Below, piece after piece: positions 37,435 to 48,941 of a DNA stretch of 64,000 nucleotides. This DNA comes from Clostridiales bacterium (GTDB lineage: Bacteria > Bacillota > Clostridia > Peptostreptococcales > Anaerovoracaceae): the NCBI GenBank assembly GCA_009776955.1, contig WRMW01000003.1:124001-188000 (forward strand), read 5' to 3'. Numbering within the stretch: the first letter of the stretch is position 1; the number at the start of each line of letters is the position of its first letter. The translations under genes and the position numbers were made by a program. Below the pieces are notes generated by a model. It had not been told where the DNA came from. It made no database searches and worked only from the letters and a program-made list of their open reading frames with translations.

Positions 37435-38355
37435 CTACATTACGGGGATATAGCCTGAGCTCTCGACTATCGCCTGCCCCTCGGGGCTGAATATGAAGTC
37501 GAGGAAGGCCTGTGCCTGCTCGCTCAGGTCGCGTGCCGTAATGTAAAGGTAGGGGCGCGCGACTTTGTAGCTTCCGTCAAGCACCGTGGCTGTGCTGGCC
37601 TCAACGCCTTCCACCATGATGAGTTTGACGCTGTCGTTTACCGCGCCGAGCGAGGCGTAGCCTACGGAATTCTCGGTCGAACCCACGGTGGTCATCACTG
37701 CGCCGGTGGAGCCTTGTATAAGGGCTGTCTCGACCGTGTTGTCCACGTTGTTGCCGTCGGCATCCCTGCCTTCCACGCCGGTTATCTCATTGAATGCGCC
37801 TCTGGTGCCGGAGCCTTCCTCACGCACAACGACCTCTATCCTGCCGGCGGAGCCGCCCACTGCGCTCCAGTCCGTAATCTCGCCGGTGAAAATGCCATGT
37901 ATCTCGTCCAGAGTCAGGCTGTCCACATCTACGTTGTGGTTCGCTATGATGCCGATGCCGTCCATCGCCACCACAAACACGCCGCCCGTCGCAAGCGCCC
38001 TCTCTTCATCCCTGAGCTCGCGGGAAAGCATGCCGAAGTCCACAAGGTCCTCTTCGACCGCACGTACGCCCTGGCCGCTTCCGCCGCCCTGAACGTCTAT
38101 CATCACGCCCCTGTGCATATCCTCAAACACGTCCGCAAACTCCTGCGCAAGCGGCTGCACGGAGGTCGAGCCTGCAAGCGTGATGTCGCCGGAAAGCTCG
38201 GCCGTGGCCGGTTCGGGGGCAGGCGCGGGGGCGGGAGCGGGGGCAGGCGCGGGAGCCGGTGCCGGCTCAGGTGCGTTGTTGCAGGCCGCCATCAGGGCTG
38301 CTGCGAGCACGAGCGCGAATACGAGCGCAATAATTTTCGTAATCTTTTTGTTCAT
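37435..38355 (-). CDS. pstS: Phosphate-binding lipoprotein PstS
   Basis: The 306-residue protein has a lipoprotein signal (IALVFALVLAAALMAAC), a Pro-Ala-rich linker (about 20 residues of alternating P/A) as a flexible tether, and the binding domain with GSTSVQPLAQEFADVF, GSGQGVRAVEEDLVDFGM and REEGSGTRGAF, the phosphate-coordinating loops. ATG 38355 is preceded by GGAGAA. Confidence 0.95.
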   Translation of the reverse strand: MNKKITKIIALVFALVLAAALMAACNNAPEPAPAPAPAPAPAPAPAPEPATAELSGDITLAGSTSVQPLAQEFADVFEDMHRGVMIDVQGGGSGQGVRAVEEDLVDFGMLSRELRDEERALATGGVFVVAMDGIGIIANHNVDVDSLTLDEIHGIFTGEITDWSAVGGSAGRIEVVVREEGSGTRGAFNEITGVEGRDADGNNVDNTVETALIQGSTGAVMTTVGSTENSVGYASLGAVNDSVKLIMVEGVEASTATVLDGSYKVARPYLYITARDLSEQAQAFLDFIFSPEGQAIVESSGYIPVM

Positions 38356-38394
38356 TGTTTGTAATTCTCCTTTTCTTATTCTTAACATAGGCAC

Positions 38395-38489: not shown

Positions 38490-38517
38490 TTGACAAATTG
38501 CTATTATATGGTATCAT
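38490..38517 (+). promoter_or_regulatory. Promoter of the Tad-like cluster
   Basis: TTGACA (38490-38495), 16 bp, TATCAT (38512-38517) with ATGG before the -10 box. The first usable ATG (38527) lies 9 bp downstream, suggesting a leaderless transcript. Confidence 0.7.
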
Positions 38518-38526
38518 GTGCATATT

Positions 38527-39207
38527 ATGGGTGCAAAAACAAACAAACTAAAGACGGCGTTGGGCATATTGCTCGTGCTGCTCGCGATAGCGGCCTTGTT
38601 CTTTTGGGAAGCTGAGGGGCGGGAAATATTATTGATGGACACCGTGCTTGTGGCAGAAGCCGACGTGAAAGCTGGGGCAGCCGTGGACGCAGGGCTGTTC
38701 CGCATGGTGTCCGTGCCAGCAGGGACGCTTGTGGACGGCGCAGTCACGCCAAAGGATGCGGCCATGCTTTACGGCAAGGAGGCAGCGATGGACATAGTGA
38801 AAGGCTCGCAGTTGTCGCTTAGGTATCTACGCGACCCTGATACGGCGGCAGAGCCTAAGCCCGAAACCTCATTCTTCGTCATAAGGAACGAATGGATATA
38901 TATGTGCTCAAGCTCGCTCAGGCGTGGCGACGAGGCGCTTATAACATCTGCGGACGGAAAGCTTGTGCTCGGACGCTTTGCCGTAGCCTATGTCAAGGAC
39001 GGGGACGGGCGCGAGGTCACGGACGCCTCATCGGGCATGTACAGCTTCACAGGTGCAGGCGGCGAAAGTGAGCGCGTAAACACTTCTTCCCCGATCCACC
39101 ATATCGAGATCGTATGCGAGCTGAAGGATTATCGGCGCATACTCGACTATTGCAACGGCAGCGCAGGGGCGACGCTTATGCTTATAAGGGAAATGGGGCA
39201 TGGGTGA
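38527..39207 (+). CDS. SAF-domain protein, CpaB/RcpC-like
   Basis: The 226-residue protein has one N-terminal membrane helix (ALGILLVLLAIAALFFW) and a SAF-like region (VLVAEADVKAGAAVDAGLFRMVSVP ... DIVKGSQLSLRYL), as in CpaB/RcpC of Flp pilus systems. The rest is not conserved to my eye. It opens a run of seven closely spaced genes. Confidence 0.72.
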   Translation: MGAKTNKLKTALGILLVLLAIAALFFWEAEGREILLMDTVLVAEADVKAGAAVDAGLFRMVSVPAGTLVDGAVTPKDAAMLYGKEAAMDIVKGSQLSLRYLRDPDTAAEPKPETSFFVIRNEWIYMCSSSLRRGDEALITSADGKLVLGRFAVAYVKDGDGREVTDASSGMYSFTGAGGESERVNTSSPIHHIEIVCELKDYRRILDYCNGSAGATLMLIREMGHG

Positions 39208-39213
39208 TTTGGC

Positions 39214-40569
39214 ATGAACGATAACGGGATGAGATTTGAGGAAGTGTGCCGCTTCGTCGAGTCCGTGCTTTCGCCAAGCGAGCAAGGGGCTGACAGCGCC
39301 GTGTCCGACAGGCTGCCTGAACTGGCGACGCAAAAGCGGGCGATCATCGGATATACGGACGAGGTGAACACATATATGAGGGCTATAGGGGAGATACTTT
39401 CTTCGCATGGGCTGCACGGGAAGTTTTCGGTGCCGCTCTGGTACGAAAGCGAGGAGGACGCTGTCTTTCAGGAGATTTGGGGCCGTGCCGGCATGGCGCA
39501 ATGGTGGCGCTCGCCTTTCTTGAGCAGCCCAAGCGCCAAGATCATCGGCGACGAAATCTACTTTTTGGTTGACGGGAAGATGAAGCGTATGCCGCAAAGA
39601 ATCGATATGCATAGACGCGAGCAGCTTGTGCGGTCGTTTTTGCTGCTTTCACCGGAAGAAAGGCTTGACCGCGACTTCCACGAGATATATCTGCTGGACG
39701 GCTGCCGCGTGACGGTGTTCAAGGGCTCCATGGCAAAGAAGGGGCGTGACACCATCATATTCCGGCGGTATATCGTGCCCGAATACACGCTTGAGGAGCA
39801 GGCCGCACGGGGTGCCATACCGTCAGCGGCCATACCAATGCTCTCGGCCATGGTGCGCGTAGGATACAATGTAGCCTTTTGCGGCAGCGTGCGCTCGGCG
39901 AAGACGACCTTTCTTTCGACGTGGCAGCGCATGGAAGATCCGACGCTCGAAGGCGTCATGGTCGAGACGGATCCGGAGATACCTCTGCACAGGCTTATGC
40001 CAGGCGCACCTGTTGTGCAGCTTATATGCGACGGCGAGCGGCTCACCTCGATATCAAAGAACCTTCTGCGCAGCGACGCGGACTATTTTATCATCGCCGA
40101 GGCCCGCGACGGCATTGCGCTCGATACGGCGGTAAGGGTGGCCCGGCGAGGGCAGGGGCGGCTCAAGATGACATTCCATACACGCGACCCCATGCACTTC
40201 CCCGAGGATGCAGCTGTAGAGATAGTGCGTAGCGTCGGCGGGGACATCCGCGAAACGGCCATGCGCGTGGCGGGAAGCTTTGACTATCTGTTCCACTTCG
40301 TTTCTGTAAGGCAGCAAAATGCTAAAAAACTGCGCGGCATCTACGAGGTCGGGAAGGCTGGGGACGAGCCGCGCATGGCGACTGCAGAAGAGCGAGCGCG
40401 CGGCTGGTATGTGCGCGAAATCTGTCGCTATGATTTCACGCGCGACGAATGGGGCTTTGAAAACCATATATCCGCCGGCAAGAAGCTACGCGGCATCGAA
40501 AGCGACGAGGAAGCGTTCGCGGAATTTGCCCGCGAGCTGGAGCGGCTGAGCGAAGGGAGGCATATATGA
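39214..40569 (+). CDS. CpaF/TadA-like secretion ATPase, divergent
   Basis: The 451-residue protein has the layout of type II/IV secretion ATPases: a P-loop-like VAFCGSVRSAKTTFLSTWQ (about 220-238), an Asp-box region, FIIAEARDGIALDTAVRVARRGQG as Walker B, and a His box TFHTRDPMHFPEDA. The P-loop has Ala where the glycine before Lys is normally fixed (SAK instead of SGK), and the usual GExR is AEAR. It may still bind ATP. The end overlaps the next gene by 4 bp. Confidence 0.8.
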   Translation: MNDNGMRFEEVCRFVESVLSPSEQGADSAVSDRLPELATQKRAIIGYTDEVNTYMRAIGEILSSHGLHGKFSVPLWYESEEDAVFQEIWGRAGMAQWWRSPFLSSPSAKIIGDEIYFLVDGKMKRMPQRIDMHRREQLVRSFLLLSPEERLDRDFHEIYLLDGCRVTVFKGSMAKKGRDTIIFRRYIVPEYTLEEQAARGAIPSAAIPMLSAMVRVGYNVAFCGSVRSAKTTFLSTWQRMEDPTLEGVMVETDPEIPLHRLMPGAPVVQLICDGERLTSISKNLLRSDADYFIIAEARDGIALDTAVRVARRGQGRLKMTFHTRDPMHFPEDAAVEIVRSVGGDIRETAMRVAGSFDYLFHFVSVRQQNAKKLRGIYEVGKAGDEPRMATAEERARGWYVREICRYDFTRDEWGFENHISAGKKLRGIESDEEAFAEFARELERLSEGRHI

Positions 40570-41510
40570 CGATAGACCATACCATGCTTATGGCATCGGT
40601 CTCCGCGCTTATCTACCTCTTGCTCGTGGTGGGCGTATTGATATTGATGCGCAGAAAAATAGACGCAGCCATCGATGTCTTCCGCTCGCGCCACAGACTC
40701 AGGCCAGAGCGCGGCTCAGGCGAACCCATGTTTACAGGGCTCGACCGGCTTCTGCGAACAACCATGAGAAAGCCCCTGTCTGTGACCGCGTTCGGGGTCC
40801 TTACCATCGTGCTGTTCTTCACGGTATTTATCGCATCTGCGAAAACCATCGCACCAGGGCCCGCTCTCGCGACCGGTGCCGCGTTCGCGGGCCTGCCCTA
40901 TCTATTCCTCAGGGTGCGGCTCGAACGGCTAAGGCGTGCCGGCAGCTTCGAGGGCGAAAAGCTGGTGTCTGCGTTTTTGACGGCCTACCTTATTTCGGGC
41001 GGCAATATATACGAAACCATCGAGCGTGCCATACAGTCCTCGCCGCATCTCAAGATCACGGCGAAGCTGTTGTCTGACCTGCTTATAGAATTGAGAAAGA
41101 CGGCGGATCCCGTGCGTGTCAGGGCGGCGACGGACGCTTTCGCCTACGGGGTAGGCACGAACTGGGCGTCCATGCTCGCCTATGCCATCAGGACGGGCAC
41201 GCTCAAGGGCACGGACATGACGCCCGCCATAGAGGATATACTGTCGCAATTGCGGGAGGCGCGCGCCCTCGCCGAAGCCCGCAAACGCATAAACGGCGAA
41301 TCCGTACGGATGGCGGCATACCTGACGCCAATCCTATATATAGGCTCCGTGTTTACCGCCATCGCAGTAATGGGGCTGCCGCCAGGACGCCTGCTGTACA
41401 ACCAGTTTTTCACGGCACAGGGCTTCGCCTTGTTTACGGCGGGGCTGTTCCTCTTTCTGCTGAACCGTATGCTGCTTGAGACGCTTACGAACCGTAAGCT
41501 GGACTTTTGA
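40566..41510 (+). CDS. TadB-like inner membrane protein
   Basis: The 314-residue protein has membrane helices at the N-terminus and around 80-110 and 255-300, and a cytoplasmic GspF-like helical core (FEGEKLVSAFLTAYLISGGNIYETIERAI). This pattern and position after the ATPase match TadB. Coupled by ATGA to the ATPase gene. Confidence 0.72.
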   Translation: MTIDHTMLMASVSALIYLLLVVGVLILMRRKIDAAIDVFRSRHRLRPERGSGEPMFTGLDRLLRTTMRKPLSVTAFGVLTIVLFFTVFIASAKTIAPGPALATGAAFAGLPYLFLRVRLERLRRAGSFEGEKLVSAFLTAYLISGGNIYETIERAIQSSPHLKITAKLLSDLLIELRKTADPVRVRAATDAFAYGVGTNWASMLAYAIRTGTLKGTDMTPAIEDILSQLREARALAEARKRINGESVRMAAYLTPILYIGSVFTAIAVMGLPPGRLLYNQFFTAQGFALFTAGLFLFLLNRMLLETLTNRKLDF

Positions 41511-41520
41511 GGACGGGCGA

Positions 41521-42204
41521 ATGGGGTTTTTCGTGGCAGTGACAGTGGCGGTTATTTTTTCGGCAGGTGTGTTTGTGCTGCTGATGCAAGCCGCGCCACG
41601 GACTTACAGGCTGGCGGAGGAGCGGAAGTCTGGCGGTGCTATGATGCGTGAGGCGTTGACTAGGGCGGCAGCGGCGGCGGGCAAACGCATATCTGGCATC
41701 CGCACGGTAAAACGGCAGGAACTCGTGCAGAAGGAGCTCTACTCCGCCCTTTCCGTGCTTCGCAACCACGCCAGCGCGGATGACGGAAGAGGGGCGGCGG
41801 GCGCCTGCGTGACCACCGACTATATACTTGAGCAGTTCGCAAGCTCAGACGGCACGCTGAAGGAAGCCTTCGCCGGCGCCCTGCGCCTTATGCGCACCGG
41901 GCGCCGTTCCGAAGCGACCGAATACTTCACCGCAGCCGCAGGAGAGGAGCTTGCAAGGGACTTCATACTGCTTGTGCTCGACTGGGACGCCGTCCCGCCC
42001 CACAAGCTCAAACATACCGTGAGCGCATTCCAGAACGCGCTTAGGGAAACACGCACCACGGAGCTTATCCGCAAAAACGAATTGTTGAGCGACCTGGTCT
42101 ACCTGCCCGTGGTCACCGGCGTCCTCGTCGTATTCGTCAACTTTATCTACATAGCTTACTTCGCAGAGCAGCGCGCATTGCTCGGCGAGCTGTTTATGAT
42201 GTGA
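41521..42204 (+). CDS. TadC-like inner membrane protein
   Basis: The 227-residue protein has an N-terminal helix (FFVAVTVAVIFSAGVFVLLM), a helical cytoplasmic core and a C-terminal helix (VYLPVVTGVLVVFVNFIYIAYF). It takes the usual TadC place after TadB. ATG 41521 follows GAGG; a longer frame would overlap the previous gene. Confidence 0.6.
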   Translation: MGFFVAVTVAVIFSAGVFVLLMQAAPRTYRLAEERKSGGAMMREALTRAAAAAGKRISGIRTVKRQELVQKELYSALSVLRNHASADDGRGAAGACVTTDYILEQFASSDGTLKEAFAGALRLMRTGRRSEATEYFTAAAGEELARDFILLVLDWDAVPPHKLKHTVSAFQNALRETRTTELIRKNELLSDLVYLPVVTGVLVVFVNFIYIAYFAEQRALLGELFMM

Positions 42205-42238
42205 TTCGCAGGGCTCTACATAAAGGAGGATTAACAAT

Positions 42239-42397
42239 ATGAAACAAATGATTGTCTTGCTCAGCACCGTGATACTCGGAATCGCCATCGCAGCGATGGT
42301 GCTCAGCTTCAAGGACACGACGCAAGGGCTTACGGAGTCCACAAAGGCCCGCATGGAAAGCGCTCTCGGCTTCGACGGGCCGGCCGGAACACCATAG
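42239..42397 (+). CDS. Small pilin-like protein, 52 aa
   Basis: The sequence begins MKQMIVLLSTVILGIAIAAM and continues with an amphipathic helix (DTTQGLTESTKARMESAL). Strong ribosome-binding site AAGGAGG. The size, a single N-terminal hydrophobic helix and the position after TadC fit a Flp-type pilin without a long leader, although the G/FL-E processing site of classical Flp is not obvious. It shares its MKQ(M/F)IVL start with the next two genes. Confidence 0.6.
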   Translation: MKQMIVLLSTVILGIAIAAMVLSFKDTTQGLTESTKARMESALGFDGPAGTP

Positions 42398-42417
42398 AAA
42401 GGGGGCGGGCGGCAAAG

Positions 42418-42570
42418 ATGAAGCAATTTATCGTTTTGATGAGCATGGTCGCGCTCGGCATATTTATCTACGCCTATATAGCCGGCGGCGGGGACTCCAT
42501 ACTGACCGCGCTAAAGGCGATATGGCGACAAGAAGCCGTAGCGAGCCCTTACTCAGGGGGCGGCCTGTGA
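42418..42570 (+). CDS. Small pilin-like protein, 50 aa
   Basis: The sequence begins MKQFIVLMSMVALGIFIYAY and ends in a short Gly/Ser tail (SPYSGGGL). GGGGGCGGG lies upstream of the ATG. It has one membrane helix, and its stop overlaps the GTG of the next gene. Probably a minor component of the same surface structure. It is too short to assign by family. Confidence 0.55.
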   Translation: MKQFIVLMSMVALGIFIYAYIAGGGDSILTALKAIWRQEAVASPYSGGGL

Positions 42571-43106
42571 AGCAATTTATAGTGCTCGCGGCTATCTTGC
42601 CAATAATGCTCGTCTTTGTGGCACAGCTTTCGCTTGAAGGCGTGCGTTCGCTACGGATGAACGCAGCGGAGGACGCCATACGCGCTTTCTGCATCGAGGC
42701 CGCTTATTTTGGCGGAGGCGGGTCGGCGGAGGCTGACGCCCTGCGTACACGGCTCGCCGGAATATTCCGCGCCGACCCGCGCGACGTCCATGTGGACCTA
42801 ACACCGGCGGGCGAATGGCGGATAGACTGGTGCGTGTCATTCCCTGTCGGGGACATCATGGCCGGCGCACGCCTTATGGGACTATCCCCCGCGGAGAACC
42901 GTGGCCGTGCGGATATGGGCGGCACCATCGTCATAGCACCCCCGTCTCCAGATGCGCCCCCGCCACCAGAAGCGCCCCCGCCACCAGAAACACCGACGCC
43001 AGATGCGGACGGCCAGGACACGCCAAATGACGCTGACACAGAGACCGGCGAGGATGCAACACCCCCGGACGAGACCGACCCGGACCCCAGCCCAAATCCA
43101 CACTAA
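42567..43106 (+). CDS. TadE-like protein with Pro-rich tail
   Basis: The 179-residue protein starts at GTG 42567 with the same MKQFIVLAAILPIMLVFVAQ pattern, then a soluble domain (VRSLRMNAAEDAIRAFCIEA, DVHVDLTPAGEWRIDWCVSF) with two Cys and a tail of about 60 residues rich in Pro, Glu and Asp. The fold after the helix recalls TadE/DUF4320-type pseudopilins. The tail likely spans or contacts the cell wall. Confidence 0.6.
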   Translation: MKQFIVLAAILPIMLVFVAQLSLEGVRSLRMNAAEDAIRAFCIEAAYFGGGGSAEADALRTRLAGIFRADPRDVHVDLTPAGEWRIDWCVSFPVGDIMAGARLMGLSPAENRGRADMGGTIVIAPPSPDAPPPPEAPPPPETPTPDADGQDTPNDADTETGEDATPPDETDPDPSPNPH

Positions 43107-43139
43107 TCATTACAATTGCGAAAGGAAAAATCAAAAACA

Positions 43140-46100
43140 ATGCTTATAAAGATCAACACCTTACTTATTGCGATGCTCGTTATCGCGCTCTTTCTCGGCT
43201 CGTTTATGAGTGTCACCGCCGAGCCCCCCACGACGAGCCATACGGAGACGGGGCCTGCGGAGAGCGAGCCTCCTGCCATTTTTGACGAACATACGTTTTT
43301 GCATGACATTCCGCCAGAGGGAAACCCGGCCGAGGATATGCTTACCCTCGACATAGACATAGACGAGCCGGCACCCACAGAGACGAAGCCTGCGTTCCTT
43401 TCGCTGGAATCCGCCCAACTCGCCCCGATGTCAAATGTCATCGTGCCTGTCGCCCCGCTGGTGAACATAACGGTAAGTGACGAGGCCGCTCTCAGAAAAG
43501 CCATCACGGACGCAGATGACAATGCACCTTATCACATAAGGCTTGATGCGAATATACATCTGACAGGAAGTGCCTTGGCAATCCCTGCAAACAAGAACAT
43601 CTGGCTTACCGGCGCCATTCTCGTGGCTGGAAGGGTATTTCCAGTCAGCGTTATTGGAGCCCACAATCAAACGACTGTGACCATCGCCGCCAATGCTGTC
43701 CTTAATATAGATGGTGTTTCCATAACCCACGCCAACGGCATCAACGAGGAAGGGGTAATGGTGACAAGCAGAAGGGGCAGGGGGGTCACCGTCAACGGTA
43801 CGCTCAATCTGGTTTCAGGGGGGATCACGCACAACCGCTTTGTGGGCAACGGCGGAGGGGTGAGCATAAACAGCACCGGCATCTTCAATATGTATGGCGG
43901 AAATATCTCTTATAACTATGCCAATAGCGATACCTCCACCGATCCGGCGACAATCAACTGGGGCGGGGGCGTATACGTTTCTGGCGGGGTGTTCAATCTA
44001 TATGGCGGGGAAATTGTACACAACAGAGCCACCGCAGCAGGCGGAGGGGTCAGGGTCCAATCAGGGCACTTCAATATGCACAACGGCTATATTTACGACA
44101 ACTGGTCGTCCACGAGCTCGGGCGGCGGCGTGAGTTCAAACGCGACCAGCAGGATGTACGGCGGGGGAATCCAGGAAAACGGCCTCAACAGAGACAATGA
44201 AACAACTCCTGTGACAACAACAGCCGGCGGCGGCATCGGGGTCGTGGGCGGCACCTTCACGATGCTGGGCGGAGAAGTGTCGAATAACTATTCAGGTTCG
44301 TCGGGCGGCGGCGGGGTATATATCTCAGGGGGCACGTTCAGGCTTGCTGCAGAGGACGGGTATGACGGCGGTAGCATTGCTGCTAACGAGACCAGAGGGC
44401 CAGGGGGCGGCATAAGGAATAACGGGGGAACCCTCCAAATCACAGGCGGGAATATCATCGGTAACTATGCAGGGGGAGGAGTCGATCTCGCCCATGACAG
44501 CGGGAGGAACGGCGGAGGCATCGTCGGGGCCATATCGGGCACGATGGCGAATGTGAAGATAAGCGACAACAAATGCACCGGCTCGGGAGGGGGAATATCT
44601 ACAGCAAACGCCCTCACGGCCGACCGTGTCGAAATAACCGGAAATTTTGCGGGCGCTACAGGCGGCGGCATACGATCCTCAGGCACACTGACATTGTCCA
44701 ACTCGAGCATATCAGAAAACACCGCAAGAAGTTCAGGCGGCGGCATATACAAATCGGCGGGCAGCACCGTCCTGAACAGCAGCGCCGTGAGCTTAAACAA
44801 CTCATACAACGACCTTGTGCATGAAGTCGATGACGATGGCAACCCTCTTTCCTCGTCCGCTTACGAAGGAGGCCATGGCGGCGGTATCTATCAAGGCGGC
44901 GGGTCAAGCATAAGGCTGACGCACACCGAGCTTGAAGACAATATAGCAGGTCGCTCAGGCGGCGGGCTTTACTCGACGGGTTCTGTCACCCTGACCGACT
45001 CGTCGGTCAGCCAGAACGTTGCTGAAGGATGGAACATCAACACAGGGGAATACACTGGCGCTGGCGGCGGGTTGCGCGCCGTGGACGCGACGGTCACGGT
45101 GAACAACTCCGTCATTGAGGGCAACCGTTCCAACAAGGGCGGCGGGATATACGCAAACTCGACAGTGACCGTCACTTCCGGCACGATCTCAAAAAACACG
45201 GCATTCCTCAACGGCGGCGGGATATGGGTGACGGACACCACTAGCAACCTCACCAGGGCAAGAATCGCCGCAGGGGTTACTTTCTCTGGAAACCTTGCCT
45301 CTAACGGAGGGCCTTACCCTAGAAGGCCTGCCGACATCACCACATACAATAACAACATCGGGTCGAGCGGCACGGGCGTCACATGGACATACCCCTGGAG
45401 CCAAGGTTACAACAACCACGACATAGCCTATGTCAACGGCGAGGAGATAACATCCCCCGTCCATAGGGTGACCGTCAACTCGTCCTGGGCGACGGGGCAG
45501 TGGCCACACTCCATTCATTCATTGTCAGGCACGGGCGATTACATATTCGGCGAATCAATTGTACAGATTGATGCAGGGTCGAGGACGGGCTACTCTTTCA
45601 GCGGCTGGACGGTGAACAGCGGCGGCGCATCCCTCGCAAACCCGAACTCCGCCGTGACGACATTCCCTATGGCCGACTCGTCGGTGACGGTCACTGCGAA
45701 CTGGACGGCAAACAGCTATACCGTCACCCTTGACAGGCAGGGCGGCAGCGGTGGTACTGCCAGCGTCACTGCCGTTTTCGATTCAAATATGCCTGCGATG
45801 ACCAGACCAACCCGCACGGGCTACACGTTCGGCGGCTACTGGACAGGGGCAGGAGGCACGGGCACGATGTACTACACAAACACAGGCGCTTCGGCTAGGG
45901 CATGGAACCTACCATCCGACACAACGCTTTACGCTCGATGGACGGCAAGCACTTACACCATAACCTACGACACCAACGGCGGGACAGGCAGCATGGCACA
46001 GACAACTGCGACATATGACGCAAGCGTATCGCTAAGGGCGAACAGCTTCACACGCACTGGCTACACCTTCGCAGGCTGGGCCACAAGCACGGCAGGCCCT

Positions 46101-48941
46101 GTCGCATATCAGGATTTGTATTCCTTCACCCCTTACAAGATCGCGAGCGGGCTGTCGCTTTTTGCCGTATGGACCGCCAACACCTATACCGTGACTTACA
46201 ACGACAATGGCGGGTTCGGCACAATGGGGGAAGGCACGGCCACGTTCGACTCCCCGTTCACCATTGCCGCCAACGCTTTTGCGAGGCCAGGCTTTCAGTT
46301 CAGGGGATGGAACACGGCTTCAAACGGGCTCGGCACGGCATACGAGCCGGATCATGCGTTTTCGCCTTGGGGCATGACATCGAACTTGAGCCTTTACGCT
46401 CAATGGGATGTCTGGGTGACAGTCTCGCTTGATGTAAGAAAGGACGGAGAGCCTTGGGATAGCCATGGGAAATCGTTTGAACTCAGACTGGATGGAAACG
46501 AGGATACGAGGATGCCTCTGTCATACAAAGGCGGCATGCTAACGACCGAGGCCAGTAGCGGAATATGGAAAGTGTTTGAAAACGGCATCGACACCAGCCG
46601 GACCATTGCTGTCACAGGGAGCCATGCGGAGTTTGCCTTGGATTACCATACAATAATGTTTTCCGCTGAACCTGACCCATTTACTCCGTCTGTAAACGCA
46701 ACCGCCTCGGCTACATATGGGGGCGAGGACATCGCGAGCGGGTCTGTCTTGCTTGGCGGCAGGGAGCTTATCGTCACGATTGCGGCCACTGGCGCTGACA
46801 GCTACGGATATGCGTGGAGCGGCGGCAGCATCGGGACAGGAGCGACACGAATCGTCTCGGCTGTGGCTTCTTTGCAAAACATAGCCTGCCAAGTCACAGG
46901 CCTGTATGCACCCTCAATATCGTCAAACGCCTTTCTGGGCGGTACGGACGGCAAGGGCGGCACGGTCGGCGTGCCATACAGCCAAAGCCTTGCAGCAGAG
47001 GGGACGCAGCCTGTCACATGGAGCGTGGAAAGCGGCACCATGCCGCCCGGCCTGACGCTCCTAGGCAATGGCACGATCGAGGGGACTCCGACCGCGGCAG
47101 GCGTCTACGCTTTCACCGTGCGGGCGCAAAACGGCGTGATTCCCGCCGCGTCAAAAGACTTCGAGATAAATATAAGCGGCGGCATCGCCACGCTCAATGC
47201 CTACAAGGACGGCGCCCCGTGGGGCGGGCACGGCAAAGATTTTGAGCTGCGGCTAAACACTGACGAGAGCGTAAGGACGGCTCTGGCAGGCACGGGCGGC
47301 ATCCTGGCGGCAAGCGTCGCAAACGGACTGTGGAAAGTCTACGACGGCGGCGTGTACACCGAAACGGACATCCATATCAACGACTTAAACGCCGTCGGGC
47401 GGCTTTCGTACTATACGGTGAACTACGCCGTTTCGCCCCACCCCGATTCTCCTAAACTCGCCGTAAGCGCCGAAGCGACATACGACGGCATCCCAGTGGA
47501 AAACGGGGACATAGTCCTTGGCGGCGGCGAGCTTGCCGTAACGGTCAAAGCGGAGGGTGCGGTCGGCTATGAGTATTATTGGGGCGGCGTGACGGCGGGC
47601 GGATCGCCAAATACGGTGCCAAGCGGGTCGCATACATACACGGCCACGCTCGCATCCACCTCAGCCATATCGTGCCGCGTGGCGGGGATATATACAGCGA
47701 CACTGAACGTATACAATGACGGCTCGCCGTGGAGCGATTACGAAAAAAATTATTCATTGAAGCCTGGCACGGGCGAGAACGCAATTGTGGCGATGACGAA
47801 CATGGGTTCTTCTTCGAGTGCTGAAGTCAGAAGCGGCACGTGGATGGTGTATGACGGCGACACCTACACCGGCATCACGATTGCGGTAAGCGGGCAAGAT
47901 GCCGACGCCACGCTCGCCTATTACACGGCGACCGCGAATGTCTATAGGGACGGCGAGCCGTGGGCTGCCCATGGCAGGGATCTGACGCTTAGGGCTGCAG
48001 GGAATGCGAGCGTGGTCATCCCTCTCGGCTTTGGCGAGGGGGGCGAGATGACCGCGCCCGTCTGGAACGGGACTTGGGCTGTTTATGATGGCAACAATCC
48101 CACCGGGCAGTCAATAACGATAAACAATCGTGCGAGGGACGGCGCTGTTGCATATATGCCGCTCTATGAGCACTTGGTTGAGGCTTACGATGTCACGTTG
48201 AGCGTCAACAAGGACGGAGCGGCGTGGGAAGACCATGGGAAGGTGTTCGCTCTCAGGTATTCGGCGGACGGAGAGATAGGCAAGCCCGTAGCGAATGGTG
48301 TGGCAAGAGGCGTGCCAAACGGCGTGTGGAGGCTTTTTGAAAGCGGGCAGGACACGGGCGCGCAGATAAAGGTAAACAGCCGGCCGGTCAATGCGACGCT
48401 GAACTACAACACCGTTGTCAAGCCTGGGGATTCAGGGGCGAGCTCGGGCTCGGGCTCAGGTGCGGGCACTGGCTCTGGGTCGGGCTCTGGGTCGGGGGCA
48501 GGTTCGGGGGCAGGTTCGGATTCGGGGGCGGGGCAGGACACGGACAGCATATATCTGACGGATGTGGTGATTGCGGATGAGGGAGGAGACCGCACGGCGG
48601 CGGACTCGGATTCCACAACCCTGGGAAACATAGTGGACGGAGGTTCGGGCGGAGGTTCGGGCGGTGCAGGGTCAGGCGGTGATGGAAGTGGCGGTGATGG
48701 TGGCGGCGGGGGCGGAGGTTCGAGCTTGGGCAGCCTTATGCAGGAAATCGGCAACCTCGTTTTGCGTGCGGTCGAAGCGTTGATCGCCCTGCCGCTTGCG
48801 GACAAGGTGTTGCTAGGCACCGCCGCCTGCGCCCTCGGATTGTTGTGCAAACTGATGTTCGGATTTTTCGCAGGAGGGCCAAAGCGTAAAGGCGATAGGG
48901 ACGGCAGAGGCGGAAAGGTAAGGTCGCCCGCCTACGCCTGA
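43140..48941 (+). CDS. Giant surface adhesin with beta-helix and multiple repeat types
   Basis: The 1933-residue protein has a signal peptide (LLIAMLVIALFLGSFMSVTA), a right-handed beta-helix region of GGG-type rungs (about residues 130-720), three or four InlB-type (Listeria-Bacteroides) repeats with Y-x-V-T-Y/F-D and GYTFxGW motifs (about 780-1090), an Ig-like region (PVTWSVESGTMPPGL), and five copies of a ~75-residue repeat (V-x-KDG-x-PW-x-x-HGK ... GxWxVY) between 1090 and 1760. A Ser-Gly and Gly-rich linker, a membrane helix (VLLGTAACALGLLCKLMFGFF) and a basic tail end it. No LPxTG. Last gene of the Tad-like cluster, so probably its client or tip adhesin. Confidence 0.85.
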   Translation: MLIKINTLLIAMLVIALFLGSFMSVTAEPPTTSHTETGPAESEPPAIFDEHTFLHDIPPEGNPAEDMLTLDIDIDEPAPTETKPAFLSLESAQLAPMSNVIVPVAPLVNITVSDEAALRKAITDADDNAPYHIRLDANIHLTGSALAIPANKNIWLTGAILVAGRVFPVSVIGAHNQTTVTIAANAVLNIDGVSITHANGINEEGVMVTSRRGRGVTVNGTLNLVSGGITHNRFVGNGGGVSINSTGIFNMYGGNISYNYANSDTSTDPATINWGGGVYVSGGVFNLYGGEIVHNRATAAGGGVRVQSGHFNMHNGYIYDNWSSTSSGGGVSSNATSRMYGGGIQENGLNRDNETTPVTTTAGGGIGVVGGTFTMLGGEVSNNYSGSSGGGGVYISGGTFRLAAEDGYDGGSIAANETRGPGGGIRNNGGTLQITGGNIIGNYAGGGVDLAHDSGRNGGGIVGAISGTMANVKISDNKCTGSGGGISTANALTADRVEITGNFAGATGGGIRSSGTLTLSNSSISENTARSSGGGIYKSAGSTVLNSSAVSLNNSYNDLVHEVDDDGNPLSSSAYEGGHGGGIYQGGGSSIRLTHTELEDNIAGRSGGGLYSTGSVTLTDSSVSQNVAEGWNINTGEYTGAGGGLRAVDATVTVNNSVIEGNRSNKGGGIYANSTVTVTSGTISKNTAFLNGGGIWVTDTTSNLTRARIAAGVTFSGNLASNGGPYPRRPADITTYNNNIGSSGTGVTWTYPWSQGYNNHDIAYVNGEEITSPVHRVTVNSSWATGQWPHSIHSLSGTGDYIFGESIVQIDAGSRTGYSFSGWTVNSGGASLANPNSAVTTFPMADSSVTVTANWTANSYTVTLDRQGGSGGTASVTAVFDSNMPAMTRPTRTGYTFGGYWTGAGGTGTMYYTNTGASARAWNLPSDTTLYARWTASTYTITYDTNGGTGSMAQTTATYDASVSLRANSFTRTGYTFAGWATSTAGPVAYQDLYSFTPYKIASGLSLFAVWTANTYTVTYNDNGGFGTMGEGTATFDSPFTIAANAFARPGFQFRGWNTASNGLGTAYEPDHAFSPWGMTSNLSLYAQWDVWVTVSLDVRKDGEPWDSHGKSFELRLDGNEDTRMPLSYKGGMLTTEASSGIWKVFENGIDTSRTIAVTGSHAEFALDYHTIMFSAEPDPFTPSVNATASATYGGEDIASGSVLLGGRELIVTIAATGADSYGYAWSGGSIGTGATRIVSAVASLQNIACQVTGLYAPSISSNAFLGGTDGKGGTVGVPYSQSLAAEGTQPVTWSVESGTMPPGLTLLGNGTIEGTPTAAGVYAFTVRAQNGVIPAASKDFEINISGGIATLNAYKDGAPWGGHGKDFELRLNTDESVRTALAGTGGILAASVANGLWKVYDGGVYTETDIHINDLNAVGRLSYYTVNYAVSPHPDSPKLAVSAEATYDGIPVENGDIVLGGGELAVTVKAEGAVGYEYYWGGVTAGGSPNTVPSGSHTYTATLASTSAISCRVAGIYTATLNVYNDGSPWSDYEKNYSLKPGTGENAIVAMTNMGSSSSAEVRSGTWMVYDGDTYTGITIAVSGQDADATLAYYTATANVYRDGEPWAAHGRDLTLRAAGNASVVIPLGFGEGGEMTAPVWNGTWAVYDGNNPTGQSITINNRARDGAVAYMPLYEHLVEAYDVTLSVNKDGAAWEDHGKVFALRYSADGEIGKPVANGVARGVPNGVWRLFESGQDTGAQIKVNSRPVNATLNYNTVVKPGDSGASSGSGSGAGTGSGSGSGSGAGSGAGSDSGAGQDTDSIYLTDVVIADEGGDRTAADSDSTTLGNIVDGGSGGGSGGAGSGGDGSGGDGGGGGGGSSLGSLMQEIGNLVLRAVEALIALPLADKVLLGTAACALGLLCKLMFGFFAGGPKRKGDRDGRGGKVRSPAYA

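Follow-up and report, generated by a model that had tools for sequence, protein, structure and literature searches.

A divergent Tad-like gene cassette with leaderless, pilin-like small proteins in Bacillota chromosomes and plasmids

The locus and its conserved gene order

The window analyzed here is a 64,000-nucleotide stretch (positions 124,001 to 188,000 of contig WRMW01000003.1, assembly GCA_009776955.1) from a Clostridiales bacterium of the family Anaerovoracaceae. Its forward strand carries a compact cassette of genes (38518-43106) related to those of the Tad, or type IVc, pilus, followed by the gene of a giant surface protein. A promoter-like sequence, TTGACA-16-TATCAT (38490..38517), proposed from its match to 11/12 consensus bases alone, abuts the first gene, which encodes a CpaB-like protein with an N-terminal transmembrane segment and a SAF domain (38518..39207, alternative ATG at 38527). 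Next come a CpaF/TadA-family ATPase (39214..40569), a TadB-like platform protein with a predicted T2SSF fold (40566..41510) and a TadC-like platform protein (41521..42204). Three small proteins, termed here MKQ1, MKQ2 and MKQ3, complete the cassette. On the family alignment and a survey of start sites, MKQ1 (42239..42397; 52 amino acids, with AGGAGG shortly 5′ of its ATG) and MKQ2 (42418..42570; 50 amino acids) are leaderless, single-span proteins, the former of the size of a Flp pilin, while the predicted structure and alignment of MKQ3 (42567..43106; 179 amino acids, GTG start at 42567) are pilin-like. The gene of the 1933-residue giant (43140..48941), which lies outside the conserved machine, starts 34 nt past MKQ3; no terminator-like site was found in this gap, which leaves no room for one. 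Given the promoter-like site 5′ of cpaB, cassette and giant gene are probably co-transcribed.

Taken one by one, the proteins score below nearly all Pfam and NCBIfam cut-offs. The SAF domain alone passes (5.4e-6 in Pfam), the match of the same protein to the NCBIfam CpaB model (5.5e-6) lying below its cut-off. Relatives of the locus were collected from species genomes, and the best 80 of the 154 found make up, with the window, the 81 loci considered below; many of them are cut by contig ends and many of the genomes are metagenome-assembled. Since the same genes occur in the same order in 80 further loci, the gene run is not due to chance. The full order, cpaB-tadZ-tadA-tadB-tadC-mkq1-mkq2-mkq3-mkq4, is nearly strict, cpaB being present in 76/81 loci, tadZ seen in 61/81 and mkq4 present in 46/81; the last two are absent from the genus of the window. 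The first-pass annotation had listed the eight genes, with three for MKQ-IVL proteins, as and where they are found here (all lie on the + strand), and had pointed out that a prepilin peptidase, TadZ and outer-membrane parts are lacking. At the locus this is correct, and no gene for the outer-membrane secretin RcpA/CpaC, a component not expected in a monoderm, was found among its open reading frames (ORFs). TadZ, on the other hand, turns out to belong to the cassette as a rule and to be missing from the genus of the window.

As a single sequence the ATPase remains under the Pfam and NCBIfam cut-offs. A profile built from 21 aligned relatives finds its best matches among solved structures in CpaF (E 6e-9), with FlaI and VirB11 coming next, and the match to the canonical TadA family of related genomes reaches an hhalign E of 2e-22. 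CpaF uses the Glu of the Asp box, the Walker B Glu, an Arg and the His of the His box (PMC11300603), all of which are kept in the aligned relatives; in the window the Asp box reads ETDPE and the His box TFH. The replacements already noticed in the first pass, SAK for SGK in the P-loop (GSVRSAKTT) and AEAR for GExR (AEARD), are as claimed, and the altered P-loop is a trait of much of the family and not a sequencing error. Most Family XIII members and some plasmids share GxVR[ST][AS]K, so that its reading as the sign of a pseudogene was rejected; basal members retain GK. The P-loop Gly is likewise kept in a second Clostridia family that carries the cassette in the same order (f36); Ala or Ser stands in its place in most of Family XIII and on some plasmids of Bacilli. 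In the ATPase tree the cassette enzymes of Family XIII, f36 and plasmids cluster in a single, long-branched clade that is separate from canonical TadA, with moderate local support (0.84).

The platform proteins point in the same direction. For the AlphaFold model of the TadB-like protein (predicted local distance difference test score, pLDDT, 86) the structural matches are SpoIIIAB, at the top, PilC, OutF and EpsF, at Z 9.1-9.6, the next unrelated row having 6.1, and its family aligns with canonical TadB (hhalign E 1e-5). The TadC-like protein is assigned by its alignment with canonical TadB (hhalign E 3e-4), by gene order and by weak matches of 9/26 family members to T2SSF, the best of them at E 0.003.

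Leaderless N-termini and a canonical Tad locus in the same genome

Prepilins are defined by a class III signal, a leader ending in Gly or Ala followed by a hydrophobic helix, and by its cleavage (PMC10191384). This signal is missing from the MKQ proteins. Nearly all MKQ1, MKQ2 and MKQ3 sequences, and the MKQ4 of relatives, start with Met-Lys and continue directly with the hydrophobic helix; the Gly/Ala-xxxx-Glu site occurs in 0/246 N-termini, which have neither a leader nor Glu5. To our knowledge, every known type IV pilin carries a leader peptide. The assigned starts agree with the surrounding DNA, a Shine-Dalgarno match of at least 4 bases preceding 58/67 of the mkq1 starts, as against 16% of random places, and most of the 246 starts being the first possible one after an in-frame stop (for mkq4 in 40/46 cases and for mkq3 in 46/66). 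The N-termini encoded by plasmid cassettes are of the same type as the chromosomal ones.

The AlphaFold model of MKQ3 (pLDDT 92) has a helix at residues 2-48, a further helix at 53-66 and strands at 75-82, 85-96 and 112-122, which predicts a 47-residue N-terminal helix, an alpha/beta head, giving the lollipop outline of a pilin, and a proline-rich tail. Their topology and size, their position within the operon and this predicted shape lead us to infer that the MKQ proteins are candidate pilins, which may be polymerized. One plasmid homologue falls just below the DUF4320 cut-off, and literature searches on leaderless pilins, on Tad systems of Anaerovoracaceae and on DUF4320 found nothing relevant.

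The same contig holds, at about 15-22 kb, a canonical Tad locus (G000:C3, L057) with a TadA bearing SSGK and GEVR, TadB, TadC, a Flp-like pilin whose leader reads MKSLLKNPRGG, and TadE-like proteins that have leaders and Glu5. Its presence makes the cassette a distinct second system of this genome. The first-pass view of a distinct, Gram-positive, Tad-like system is thereby supported. The lack of a peptidase at the cassette has to be qualified in the same light, because one A24 prepilin peptidase, the only one of the genome, is encoded on another contig. No A24 peptidase is encoded by the ten plasmid records that carry the cassette (0/10; the records alone, not their hosts).

Giant surface proteins, plasmids and conjugative elements

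The 1933-residue protein has an apparent Sec signal, a repeat-rich N-terminal half, Listeria-Bacteroides repeats (Pfam Flg_new, 2e-32) and a C-terminal transmembrane segment, so that no special exporter would be needed for it. A machine dedicated to this adhesin, as first suggested, is not supported by the loci of the nearest relatives (L032, L034), which have the cassette without any giant gene. The adhesin does not always accompany the ATPase: in 38 loci the sequence continues for 3 kb or more downstream, and a clear giant gene stands next to the cassette in only two of them, the window and one other. Pieces of the protein match several other giant ORFs of its own genome and of relatives. 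It is a local neighbour, and the idea of a fixed partner was rejected because it is absent from the closest relatives' loci. Two ORFs of 7518 and 7607 amino acids in the same genome (G000:C2, G000:C6) share repeats with it.

A giant of another kind does track the machine. In f36 and in two further genomes (G055, G031) the cassette is followed on its 3′ side by genes for a surface-layer homology (SLH) protein and a giant of ~1750-2250 residues that ends in a YWxLHR-like sequence; seven further genomes have the two genes as a pair away from the cassette. The loci of this module (L221-L227, L047, L051, L186) were seen only in machine-bearing genomes; the pair occurs in 14/29 genomes with the machine and in 0/32 without it (Fisher 3e-6, or 0.009 within the family, shared ancestry being ignored in both values). 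A profile of the machine-linked giants matches the f36 giant and 5/7 of the plasmid giants that were compared with it (E 6e-21 to 3e-5), and does not match the giant of the window. In the wider family the giants have about 750-2250 residues and SLH or other secreted partners. The link between giant and machine thus fails for the adhesin of the window and stands for a different, SLH-partnered giant, so that over evolution the machine goes with a giant surface partner, whose slot is filled in the window by an unrelated protein.

Strong relatives of the ATPase were found in 29/61 related genomes. Of the best 80 loci, almost every one bears the label Clostridiales Family XIII, Firmicutes or Clostridia, and Sinanaerobacter, Anaerovorax and Bacilliculturomica are among them; when class and phylum were sampled, the cassette family was found in other Bacillota too. 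In two f36 genomes (G192, G256; L190-L194) the cassette, with its SLH and giant genes, lies inside the type IV secretion system (T4SS) operon of a conjugative element, flanked by PrgI/VirB3-like and VirB4 genes, and the same element encodes a MobL relaxase, a TraG coupling protein, TrbL and ParAB. The cassette is also found on large plasmids from Planococcus, Cytobacillus, Niallia, Terribacillus, Paenibacillus, Alicyclobacillus and Bacillus. There, as in the conjugative element and in chromosomes of other Bacillota families, the gene order is kept. In most of the ten plasmid loci examined, a gene annotated as coupling protein, relaxase or replication-relaxation lies no more than 12 kb away; a clear VirB4 is present on only one plasmid, and most of the plasmids are typed non-mobilizable. 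In the window and the Family XIII loci, the surroundings of the cassette showed no T4SS or relaxase genes related to those of f36. Among viral contigs there was no relative, and a PADLOC scan for defence systems gave no match. The conjugative plasmid pXO16 has a transfer apparatus unlike known T4SS (PMC9673590); pXO16 of B. thuringiensis israelensis was considered as a lead, and the matches listed include no ATPase match to it.

Several neighbouring genes were recorded in passing. On most plasmids and in f36 a protein of ~390-510 amino acids, receiver-like by eye, is encoded 5′ of cpaB (L201, L203, L204, L206-L210, L186); it is absent from the window. A B. amyloliquefaciens plasmid encodes a second ATPase, of type II secretion/type IV pilus type, and a membrane protein ~9 kb downstream of the cassette (L202:22067-24027). 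Upstream of the cassette in the window, a PstS-like protein (37435-38394, - strand) has a long Pro-Ala linker (PAPAPAPA) after its lipoprotein-like signal.

A model for the machine and its relation to known systems

Taking into account that: (i) the ATPase and platform proteins belong with those of Tad; (ii) the small proteins begin at their helix, and (iii) a giant surface protein tracks the machine in the wider family, we lean towards a Tad-derived filament or pseudopilus machine that would use unprocessed subunits and display giant adhesins. In the model, the usual pilin processing has been lost. The CpaF-type ATPase would drive the TadB and TadC platform proteins, and the platform would pull the short MKQ1 and MKQ2, oriented N-in/C-out, from the membrane into a thin filament or an envelope-spanning pseudopilus, which MKQ3, with MKQ4 where this is kept, would initiate or cap. 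Because the subunits begin at the helix, no prepilin peptidase would be needed. The SAF/CpaB-like protein might be an extracytoplasmic part anchored in the membrane, and TadZ might position the machine in the loci that retain it. The product would serve surface contact, in other lineages together with the SLH protein and a giant, exported by Sec, that would act like an adhesin of the tip or the cell wall; the copies on plasmids and conjugative elements would probably serve mating contact. The genus of the window would then have a reduced machine, lacking TadZ, MKQ4 and the SLH and giant pair, with an unrelated giant adhesin at the end of the operon. More tentatively, the cassettes of chromosomes, plasmids and conjugative elements could make up, within the type IV filament superfamily, a Bacillota lineage that polymerizes leaderless pilins, can do without a peptidase, has giant SLH-partnered tip adhesins and takes part in cell-cell or mating contact.

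Some results weigh against this proposal. Aligned with the TadE profile, MKQ3 scores within the range of shuffles that preserve hydrophobicity, so that homology to TadE is not supported at the sequence level; a Pfam search with MKQ3 gave no pilin family, and a fold search of the PDB no clear match, the type IV-like pilin TTHA1219 reaching only Z 4.1 (the top rows are unrelated enzymes, such as pantoate ligase at Z 8.7, and unconvincing). Furthermore, nearly all genomes with the cassette encode a prepilin peptidase for other systems, and the loss of processing is consequently argued from the N-termini and not from absence of the enzyme. The cassette might then be an ordinary Tad pilus that borrows the peptidase of the canonical system in trans, with MKQ proteins as normal pilins of very short leader; MSH pili indeed lack a peptidase of their own and may share one (PMC6668835). 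We regard this as unlikely, for M1 K2 Q3 pass at once into the helix, leaving no leader to remove and neither a Gly/Ala site nor Glu5, and ten plasmids bear the cassette without a peptidase on their records.

The conjugative setting in f36 and the mobility genes around the plasmid loci would fit a mating-contact or DNA-transfer machine, in which the cassette belongs to conjugation and the chromosomal copies are domesticated; the absence of f36-related T4SS or relaxase genes around the cassettes of the window and Family XIII, the mostly non-mobilizable plasmids and the single clear VirB4 make it rather less likely still. Export or display of the 1933-residue adhesin as the dedicated task of the system is improbable: its close spacing with MKQ3 and the giants that often follow the cassette on plasmids speak for it, but relatives keep the cassette without the adhesin, which brings its own Sec signal and anchor, is one of many similar proteins and has no relation to the machine-linked giants. 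The least probable explanation is a degenerating, non-functional Tad relic, as the lack of tadZ, mkq4 and the SLH and giant pair in the four genus members examined could indicate. In all four, however, the remaining genes are open, and the ATPases of genus members are 69-76% identical with their motifs kept.

The cassette family is an uncatalogued relative of the motor of the Tad pilus and occurs widely in Gram-positive bacteria and their plasmids. Standard annotation misses it, since the ATPase and the platform proteins score under the Pfam and NCBIfam thresholds. Cleavage of the leader by prepilin peptidase is taken to be a universal and defining trait of type IV filaments; if the proposal is true, the need for this step could be tested directly in a widespread natural system that has the motor and platform but subunits with no leader. 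Moreover, the link with plasmids and conjugative elements suggests an unrecognized mating surface appendage of Gram-positive bacteria.

With the monoderm Tad pilus the cassette shares the TadZ-TadA-TadB-TadC order, the CpaF/TadA-family ATPase, two separate, single-domain platform proteins and small membrane proteins of Flp and TadE size. It differs in having no prepilin leaders, no peptidase and CpaB/SAF in front, and in its divergent, long-branch ATPase clade, with Ala or Ser for the P-loop Gly in many members; at the locus of the window TadZ, the peptidase TadV and the secretin RcpA/CpaC are all wanting. The genes that mark a conjugative T4SS, those for VirB4, a coupling protein and a relaxase, do not accompany the machine in the window or Family XIII loci; they are present around the f36 cassette and in part on plasmids. 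The Kil system of Myxococcus xanthus is likewise a divergent Tad-like machine with a function in surface contact (PMC8460266, PMC12075869); it differs in the prepilin sites predicted for its minor pilins and in the peptidase, KilA, encoded at its locus. SpoIIIAB of endospore formers shares the platform fold, but the gene neighbourhood and the ATPase of the cassette are Tad-like. The type IVa tip adhesin PilY1/PilC1 is a large, Sec-exported non-pilin protein associated with its machine, and by analogy the SLH and giant pair may be likened to it, although the giants here have their own range of length and come with SLH or other secreted partners.

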